Made by a program: the position numbers and the translations under genes
Part shown: piece by piece, positions 8,440 through 32,087 of the stretch
Layout of the letters: the number at the start of each line of letters is the position of its first letter
Numbering within the stretch: position 1 is the stretch's first letter
Assembly (NCBI GenBank): GCA_026391945.1
Contig: JAPLDA010000020.1
Span: 1-36,943 of the forward strand
Direction: 5' to 3'
Origin: Bacteroidota bacterium
GTDB lineage: Bacteria > Bacteroidota > Bacteroidia > AKYH767-A > 2013-40CM-41-45
DNA: 36,943 nucleotides
Notes under the pieces: model-generated
Databases searched by the model: none
What the model was told of the DNA's origin: nothing
What the model saw: the letters and a program-made list of their open reading frames with translations, nothing else

Positions 8440-8513
8440 AGCCTTCTGCGAGAATCGAACTCGCGACCTGTTGTTTACGAAACAACCGCTCTGGCCGGCT
8501 GAGCTAAGAAGGC
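8440..8513 (-). tRNA. tRNA-Thr (anticodon CGT)
   Basis: On the minus strand the acceptor arms GCCTTCT and AGAAGGC pair fully. The D arm is GCTC...GAGC. The anticodon stem GTTGT/ACAAC encloses loop TTCGTAA with anticodon CGT (reads ACG). The T arm is GCGAG-TTCGATT-CTCGC. Length is 74 nt including the discriminator; CCA is not encoded. Confidence 0.96.
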
Positions 8514-13065: not shown

Positions 13066-13264
13066 AACCTATTGTAAATATTTATAAAGGAGCGACTGTG
13101 GAGGGATAAGGCGTATCGTTCAGGCCGTTTCGTCGCAATAGAAAATGCGATAAGGAGCGATAATGAACGATTTCAATCCGACTTTCTTCCTGCCATCCGC
13201 TCCAAACCCTCCTCTGCACAAGCCATCGCCTCCGGGTTTTTCGCTGCTGTCGGGGCTACTAAGA

Positions 13265-13629
13265 AAATTCCTGCTGCCGCCATTTGCATTTACAGAACAC
13301 GGTGTTGCCATGCTTGCGAATATTTTGAAGAGTAAAAAAGCCCGGCAAACAAGCATCTCCATCGTGCGGGCATTTATTGCTCTGAAAGAATTTGCACTCA
13401 ACCATTCCGCTTTATCAGAAAAGATAAAAAAATTTAAAAAAAAATACAACAAACAATTTAAAGATGTGTATGAGGCAATCCATTATACCATTTACAATAC
13501 TCAAGATAAAATAATCCAATCCGCCTTGGCGGAGGTGTTAAGCCGATAGAGTATCTGTATTACCTTTTGCAAAAAGACAAACTGCTAATCGAACAGGAAA
13601 AACGAAAACGAATCGGATTTAAAACTTAA
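13265..13629 (+). pseudogene. Broken ORF6N/KilA-N-type DNA-binding protein gene (C-terminal part)
   Basis: The frame from about 13265 reads KFLLPPFAFTEHGVAMLANI, then SISIVRAFIALKEFALNH and KKYNKQFKDVYEAIH. This is the characteristic second half of ORF6N-domain proteins (phage-antirepressor-like). Translation is then broken by an inserted sequence (13486-13558) carrying a stop. The tail resumes one frame over at 13561 as YLLQKDKLLIEQEKRKRIGF and ends at 13629. Deleting 13484-13560 (77 nt) rejoins EAIHY and LLQKDK in one frame. The N-terminal DNA-binding half is absent; the upstream 13163-13264 sequence is open but does not resemble the family. It is a decaying accessory gene. Confidence 0.8.
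13486..13558. mobile_element. Small structured insertion (copy A) with ATTA target duplication
   Basis: The 73-base segment is flanked by ATTA (13482-13485) and ATTA (13559-13562). Excising it with one ATTA restores the ORF6N reading frame. The core 13499-13560 matches 27968-28029 at 53 of 62 positions without gaps. Internal pairings are ATACTC/GAGTAT (13497-13502 with 13549-13554) and TCCGCC/GGCGGA (13520-13525 with 13528-13533). There is no coding capacity, so it would need a transposase in trans. Element type is inferred (MITE- or REP-like). Confidence 0.75.
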
Positions 13630-27186: not shown

Positions 27187-27960
27187 ATGTCAACTGAAAA
27201 CACAAACGCGGTAATGAGTGTAGAATCATTACAAATGAAGGTGGAAAACCAGCAGAATATGATCAAACAACTTTCCACCGAGAACGAAGAACTGTATCAC
27301 CAATTCAATCATCTGATGATCAGAAATAACAAGCTGCTTAAACGGATTGATGACTTGCAGGGAATCATTGATGATCTGCACATCAGAATTGAAGAGTTGC
27401 AATTGATCAATGGAAACATGCTGAAAATTAATGACAGGATAAAAGCCGGAAAAGATCATGTACTTTCCGGTAATGATAGTATTCTTTCGTCCTGCGATGC
27501 TTTTGAAAAACAAAATGACGATATAAAATACCGGGATGAATTCAAAAGCGTGTTTACTCAGTGGAAAAATTATCCCGGCCAGGATGGCAAGAACGAACCC
27601 AACCTTCGCAAGCAGGCGCAGATGCTGGTCCATATTTACCATCACAAAACCCTTCGCGCCGCTGACTTATTTAACCTCACAGGAGTTGGCGGAGTAACCG
27701 GCGCCCGTTATGTTGCCACTTTGAAAAAATTCGGTCTCATCAGTTATACCGGTGCCCGTAAAAAAGGATGGTATGAAATGACAAAAAAAGGAATTGAGTT
27801 CGTTGATCATTCCAATGAAAATCCGCTACCGGTGAACCCAATATCTTATGCGGGGAACCCGGCCGGCGCTGTTTTACCATCCGTCGAGTTACAGGGAATT
27901 CCCGTGAGAGAAGATGTAAAAGAATTGCTTGCCTCCCAGTTCGATCACGCCGACCTTTAA
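27187..27960 (+). CDS. Coiled-coil plus winged-helix DNA-binding-type protein
   Basis: 257 residues, no signal peptide or membrane segment. Residues about 8-85 form a continuous coiled coil (MKVENQQNMIKQLSTENEEL, then LLKRIDDLQGIIDDLHIRIE). Residues about 135-205 look like a winged helix: RKQAQMLVHIYHHKTLRAAD, LTGVGGVTGARYVATLKKFG as the helix-turn-helix, and LISYTGARKKGWYEMTKKG as the wing. The C-terminal 50 residues are unstructured. I do not recognise a named family. The dimeric coiled coil plus wHTH suggests a regulator that may bridge DNA sites; this is inference. The structured repeat copy B begins within about eight bases of its stop. Confidence 0.75.
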   Translation: MSTENTNAVMSVESLQMKVENQQNMIKQLSTENEELYHQFNHLMIRNNKLLKRIDDLQGIIDDLHIRIEELQLINGNMLKINDRIKAGKDHVLSGNDSILSSCDAFEKQNDDIKYRDEFKSVFTQWKNYPGQDGKNEPNLRKQAQMLVHIYHHKTLRAADLFNLTGVGGVTGARYVATLKKFGLISYTGARKKGWYEMTKKGIEFVDHSNENPLPVNPISYAGNPAGAVLPSVELQGIPVREDVKELLASQFDHADL

Positions 27961-27967
27961 TGCCATT

Positions 27968-28029
27968 ACTCAATATAAAATAATCCAATCCGCATTGGCG
28001 GAAGCATTATGCCGATGGAGTGGCTGTAT
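27968..28029. mobile_element. Structured repeat element, copy B
   Basis: 62 bases aligning without gaps to 13499-13560 (53 identical). Outer pairing TTACTC/GAGTGG (27966-27971 with 28018-28023) is kept by two G-T pairs; inner pairing TCCGC/GCGGA (27989-27993 with 27998-28002). An alternative hairpin CCAAT/ATTGG (27985-27989 with 27994-27998) is also possible. No clear target duplication is visible. It sits directly 3' of the coiled-coil gene. Confidence 0.75.
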
Positions 28030-28113
28030 AAGAGAATTTTTCCTGTGAAATGATTTGTTCCCGAAGGAGTAAAATCTCCTCATTTTGATTTAGTGATTCT
28101 ATCCTGAATCGTG

Positions 28114-32016: not shown

Positions 32017-32087
32017 GGTCCTGTGGCCGAGTGGTTAGGCAGAGGTCTGCAAAACCTTGTACAGCGGTTCAAATCCGCTCGGGACCT
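32017..32087 (+). tRNA. tRNA-Cys (anticodon GCA)
   Basis: Acceptor GGTCCTG pairs with CGGGACC (one T-G wobble). The anticodon stem GAGGT/ACCTT encloses loop CTGCAAA, giving anticodon GCA. The T arm is AGCGG-TTCAAAT-CCGCT. 71 nt including the discriminator T; CCA not encoded. Confidence 0.96.

Follow-up and report, generated by a model that had tools for sequence, protein, structure and literature searches.

A putative miniature transposon flanked by TNA target duplications interrupts an ORF6N gene remnant and recurs among Bacteroidota genomes

The window, that is, the entire 36,943-nt stretch of Bacteroidota DNA analysed here, carries a reading frame that includes the C-terminal remnant of an ORF6N gene and runs into an inserted segment, with positions 13483-13562 reading as TTA, a 74-bp element and TTA. 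A second copy of the element is located further downstream. The features are as follows, with the strand given where one applies:

13163-13549, forward strand: reading frame with the ORF6N C-terminal remnant, homology starting at approximately PFAFTEHG; its stop now lies inside the element
13483-13485: left copy of the target duplication, TTA
13486-13559, forward strand: the element, a 74-bp short form, TACC...CTGTA
13486-13519, forward strand: left end module, TACCATTTACAATACTCAAGATAAAATAATCCAA, with about six bases more than other copies in the alignment
13520-13533: inner palindrome, TCCGCCTTGGCGGA, seen in sequence and fold
13541-13559, forward strand: what is left of the right module, AGCCGATAGAGTATCTGTA; alignment and hairpin model indicate that this copy has lost the hairpin carried by long forms
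13560-13562: right copy of the target duplication, TTA
13563-13629, forward strand: terminal part of the ORF6N remnant, displaced by the insertion, LLQKDKLLIEQEKRKRIGFKT and its stop, identified by alignment to homologues
27961-28028, forward strand: second copy, a 68-bp form bordered by TAA on both sides (27958-27960 and 28029-28031)

Two tRNA genes (8440-8513, reverse strand; 32017-32087, forward strand) were furthermore identified in the window by comparison against Rfam.

When the flanks of the insert are rejoined, YEAIHY continues directly into LLQKDKLLIEQEKRKRIGFKT (longer joined read: ...FKDVYEAIHYLLQKDKLLIEQEKRKRIGFKT), and the joined sequence aligns without gaps to intact homologues (73.9% in L212; 68.9% in L213), the former of which is uninterrupted across the insertion point (QFKDVYEAINYLLQKDKIEINQKERKRIGF). 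Homologues in other genomes show no interruption here, and the segment is therefore not native to the ORF6N gene. The first-pass annotation had proposed that 77 extra bases break the frame, that their removal yields an ORF6N ending in one frame, and that intact homologues containing the segment would speak against an insertion; the extra bases are accounted for by the 74-bp element and one 3-bp duplication, the rejoined ending is that of ORF6N proteins, and the homologues are free of the segment. Its description of a disrupted ORF6N gene holds in part, in that the frame is interrupted by the insert, but the gene was already a 5′-truncated fragment beforehand. ORF6N homology spans approximately the last 90 of 170-200 residues, with the 5′ half missing, while the part of the frame upstream of PFAFTEHG shows no likeness to ORF6N proteins. 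The Pfam ORF6N match covers profile positions 71-86 of 86 (the last 16) and falls below the cut-off, and the PHROGs annotation of the remnant is an anti-repressor (e-value: 1.5e-6).

Comparison of the insert against the host genome (G000) returned 22 matches, itself included, with e-values of the 21 others down to 4e-21, while a full-length consensus query added three further full-length copies and small fragments, bringing the host total to about 25 copies in 3.1 Mb. These fall into size classes of 61-62 bp (seven copies), 68-74 bp (three of 68 bp and the window copy), 104 bp and 115-120 bp, and one copy is truncated to 55 bp. The long form, TACCATTACTCAATATAAAATAATCCAATCCGCCTTGGCGGAGGTATTATGCCGATAGAGTAGCTGTTATAGGCC...TTGGACTATTACAGATACCGTATCGGTA, consists of a left module beginning with TACC and a right module containing a hairpin, TGCCGAT...ATCGGTA, which is mostly missing from the short forms. 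The window copy derives from the 115-120 bp form by shortening and has lost the right hairpin: the hairpin model (R1) has zero matches in the window, the copy folds weakly when treated alone as single-stranded DNA (z = -1.6), and only TAC/GTA of the inverted repeat is left at its termini. The ending GAGTATCTGTA is common to the window copy and a copy on contig C96, suggesting a common short progenitor. Identical short endings are also paired with two different left-module haplotypes, and the short forms may alternatively have arisen through repeated deletion after insertion. At 61-120 bp in the host and up to 403 bp elsewhere, all copies are too short to encode a transposase, in agreement with the initial view that the insert has no coding capacity.

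The ends of the element are TACC...GGTA, and they are bordered by a duplicated TNA triplet. Among 59 measured copies (21 from the host and 38 from eleven other genomes, including a few degenerate copies added by hand), the same triplet is found on both sides in 48 (TAA in 24, TTA in 22 and TGA in two). When the right-hand triplets were permuted within genomes, the mean agreement was 31.6 and the maximum 46, with none of 100,000 trials reaching 48. We placed the copy ends by reference to the alignment, anchoring them on TACC and GGTA, and TNA was not a selection criterion. The four-base ATTA duplication initially read at the window copy must be corrected to the 3-bp TTA, since copies duplicated at TAA and TGA show 3 bp and the A preceding the right-hand TTA is thus the terminal base of the element. 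Most full-length copies have exact TACC and GGTA termini, but the exact match between the terminal inverted repeats ends after these 4 bp; similarity further inwards is weak and, in subfamily G092a, absent.

An exact empty site was furthermore identified when the joined flanks of six copies not shared between the sister genomes G061 and G062 were searched. A 126-bp copy in G062 (C213; L156) is missing from the orthologous position in G061 (C289; L195), where the flanks, 95.5% and 89.7% identical, meet with a three-base overlap; for the other five joined flanks no empty orthologue was located in these genomes, which is uninformative either way. Inconsistent ends and a lack of empty sites had been named as grounds for abandoning the mobile-element interpretation, and the copies show the opposite on both counts. 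The insertion in the window occurred at TTA, which was duplicated, and members of the same family have inserted repeatedly at TNA sites in the host and in other Bacteroidota genomes. A repeat of about 120 bases occurs at many contig ends of the two sister genomes (including L208-L210) and probably marks the border of a repeat that was collapsed and left unassembled.

Copies are mostly intergenic and often located near the 3′ ends of genes. In the host, 19 of 21 lie either outside open reading frames of 100 or more codons or on the stop of one, and four are exactly on a stop codon, whereas such stops account for 3.6% of the TNA triplets in the intergenic parts of these stretches. One example is the second window copy, whose left TAA (27958-27960) is the stop codon of the open reading frame at 27187-27960. 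Because the genes are simple ORF calls, the enrichment is no more than suggestive. Insertions of this kind would be harmless, as the stop codon is re-formed by the duplication. Open frames composed of tandem repeats (IISTQVS, VVTISFA and ALARTGL units) occur near copies in G061 and G062 (L147, 2214-2735 and 3968-4378; L148, 1030-1489).

The search of the host and its relatives suggested in the first-pass annotation shows a wider distribution. At least 12 of 395 evenly drawn genomes of the class matched, G000 and G005 included, which is a lower bound. An abundant relative with the same ends (116-403 bp) is present in G005, which belongs to the same family and another genus, and a same-ended relative also occurs in G019, while about a dozen copies of several subfamilies are found in G092 (20 contigs). 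Relatives outside the host measure approximately 101-403 bp. The exact right-end pattern was found in 18 stretches of public genomes, mostly metagenome-assembled, in which all named groups are Bacteroidota. Among viral contigs the right-end pattern gave six matches, none with the remaining element and five of them representing one unrelated sequence, and the hairpin-arm pattern gave zero matches; no copies were found in the plasmids and phages searched.

The TACC...GGTA ends and TNA duplications, the empty site and the uninterrupted ORF6N homologues together indicate, with a probability of roughly 0.85, that the inserted segment represents a MITE-like, non-autonomous DNA transposon of miniature size. 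The original proposal of a very small non-autonomous mobile element is hence borne out by the dispersed copies, consistent ends, target duplication, empty site and absence of coding capacity. Being shorter than 500 bp, devoid of a transposase, multicopy and dispersed, with target duplications and terminal inverted repeats, the element has the properties of prokaryotic MITEs, whose definition it fits in size, terminal repeats, duplications, intergenic bias and non-coding nature (PMC10969869). Its small size is unusual but not unprecedented, given that copies of QMITE1 are as short as 39 bp (PMC10969869). The MITEs of Porphyromonas gingivalis, a member of the same phylum (BrickBuilt, MITE239, MITE464/PgRS and MITE700), are likewise non-coding, multicopy and mostly intergenic, and their IS5-family terminal inverted repeats are common to identified full-length IS elements, but these repeats (GAGAC..., ACGT...; PMC4596501) are unlike the ends of the element. 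The Correia elements of Neisseria, RUP of pneumococcus and ERIC are also dispersed, non-autonomous, approximately 100-200 bp long and equipped with terminal repeats, but are unrelated in sequence. The target duplication of Correia elements and RUP is TA. A limited search of the open-access literature identified no described family matching the element, which would thus represent an unassigned transposon family spread across many Bacteroidota genomes, whose forms of 61-74 bp retain clean target duplications and approach the minimum size of such elements.

Mobilization would proceed through cleavage at the TACC and GGTA ends by a DDE transposase and joining of the cut ends to target DNA cleaved at TNA with a 3-bp stagger. 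From the TNA duplication, the sole basis for this assignment, we infer that the likeliest enzyme is of the IS1031 group (IS5 family), perhaps with even odds, supplied in trans by an element that is either lost or missing from the assembly. Members of the IS1031 group, such as ISLrh, prefer TNA and generate exclusively a 3-bp direct repeat (PMC12016507). ISLrh differs from the element in its length of 857 bp, its own transposase and its inverted repeats, GAACCTGTCTAGTATCT (PMC12016507), in contrast to the transposase-free element with its TACC...GGTA ends; this published repeat was the sole IS1031 sequence against which the termini were compared, and they did not match.

Searches with the profiles DDE_Tnp_1, DDE_Tnp_1_2, DDE_Tnp_4 and Y1_Tnp in selected carriers showed DDE_Tnp_1 and Y1_Tnp to be present in several of them, DDE_Tnp_1_2 in one of eight and DDE_Tnp_4 in one of 12, the latter two being absent from the draft of G000. 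Three-bp repeats are also made by other IS groups, namely IS982, ISAzo13, IS3 and IS30, and mobilization of the MITE by one of these, to which the single DDE_Tnp_1_2 and DDE_Tnp_4 carriers might point, is a tentative alternative, countered by the combination of TNA preference and an exclusive 3-bp repeat that is stated for IS1031 (PMC12016507). Neither element ends nor hairpin, the model for which covered 52 loci, were found near the fetched transposase loci, and the DDE_Tnp_1 matches in G000 are not flanked by element ends. By eye, the two DDE_Tnp_1 genes of the host resemble the IS1182 type and its single Y1_Tnp gene resembles a RAYT. The genome G064 carries copies of the element and has zero DDE_Tnp_1 or Y1_Tnp matches, while G092 has no transposase-length version among its copies. 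Lone right ends (L094/L148, L095/L164 and L149) and lone left ends (L061 and L150) were considered as possible edges of longer autonomous elements, and this was rejected as no transposase-like open reading frame is apparent by eye. The recommended search for a transposase or RAYT with matching ends therefore gave no match in the genomes and families covered, all of them draft assemblies, which frequently lack repeated IS elements. The host's only RAYT-like gene has no flanking copies of the element.

One feature sits uneasily with a MITE, in that covariation in the right-hand hairpin is unexpected for ordinary MITE ends. Following the central TNA, this imperfect hairpin comprises TGCCGAT, three mostly unpaired bases, three pairs, a mismatch, four pairs, a loop and ATCGGTA. 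In 12 diverse representatives, hand-picked to span the subfamilies, two-sided changes occur at all seven inner pairs, 100% of the helix cells pair, and the covariation score is 0.41, compared to 0.135 for shuffled and at most 0.09 for slid alignments; RNAalifold recovers the same helices unaided. Across 37 distinct arm pairs (65 copies), inner positions are paired in 76-89% and the mismatch position 14 in 16% (mostly G.A), although this check leans towards structure because the model used to find the copies was itself derived from the 12 representatives. The hairpin is kept across genera, with fold z-scores of approximately -6 to -8 in the long forms; the stem bases change in pairs, in contrast to the retained outer GCCGAT/ATCGGT, G.A mismatch and unpaired triplet. 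This pattern suggests either that a folded strand is recognised or that the arms are two transposase-binding ends evolving to match each other, and folding more readily accounts for the fixed asymmetry, in which one arm has G where the reverse complement of the other has T. Hairpin-less short forms have perfect duplications, which makes an indispensable role of the hairpin doubtful unless it was lost after insertion. Recognition of the right module as a folded single strand of DNA or RNA by an enzyme making the 3-bp TNA duplication is improbable, but would constitute a mode of transposition outside the standard DDE and HUH schemes.

The same hairpin, with its compensatory changes and fixed mismatches, would fit a REP-like palindrome moved by a RAYT or IS200-IS605 tyrosine transposase that recognises folded single-stranded hairpins; in addition, the main subfamily has a GTAG in front of its inner stem, and a Y1_Tnp gene exists in G000. 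We nevertheless consider this identity very unlikely and reject it, as no copies flank the RAYT gene and target duplications are present, which this class of transposases is not known to make. Furthermore, GTAG is lost in other subfamilies, none of the Y1_Tnp genes found is flanked by the element, copies occur in G064 where Y1_Tnp has no match, and the hairpin-less short forms are properly duplicated, though the hairpin could have been lost after insertion. REP elements share with the element conserved imperfect hairpins whose stems carry alternative complementary residues between subfamilies (PMC3733652), but are 20-40 bp long with a GTAG or CGTC tag, whereas the element is longer and combines TNA duplications with an additional, left module; it is too long for a REP, its tag is not conserved and no RAYT gene is flanked by it. 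Least credible is a host RNA or regulatory structure, such as a terminator or riboswitch-like element, that is not mobile: the strong hairpin of the long forms, its compensatory changes and the mostly intergenic position near gene 3′ ends would fit, but the empty site and 3-bp duplications show insertion, no credible Rfam match was obtained (only the tRNAs in the window and two sub-threshold matches in relatives), and the window copy has no hairpin and lies inside a gene remnant. A secondary RNA role for some copies is possible.

For the miniature transposon favoured here, the covarying hairpin of the long forms poses a testable question, namely whether the mobilizing enzyme recognises a folded strand or a pair of matching double-stranded ends, and the combination of TACC...GGTA, TNA and the hairpin provides a bait for the missing transposase. 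Further peculiarities can be observed within the hairpin. Four of the nine subfamilies have, at positions 8-10, an unpaired triplet that forms a direct repeat flanking the inner stem (ATA, CGA, GCT and GCT), resembling a second, nested 3-bp duplication. Two loci of G005 (L067 and L068) contain a loop segment of approximately 95 bp in opposite orientations, as if inverted across the stem. Finally, in the copy at 1435-1505 of L242 (G000:C110) the right arm is a perfect complement of the left, as if corrected from arm to arm, and the same is partly seen in L244.
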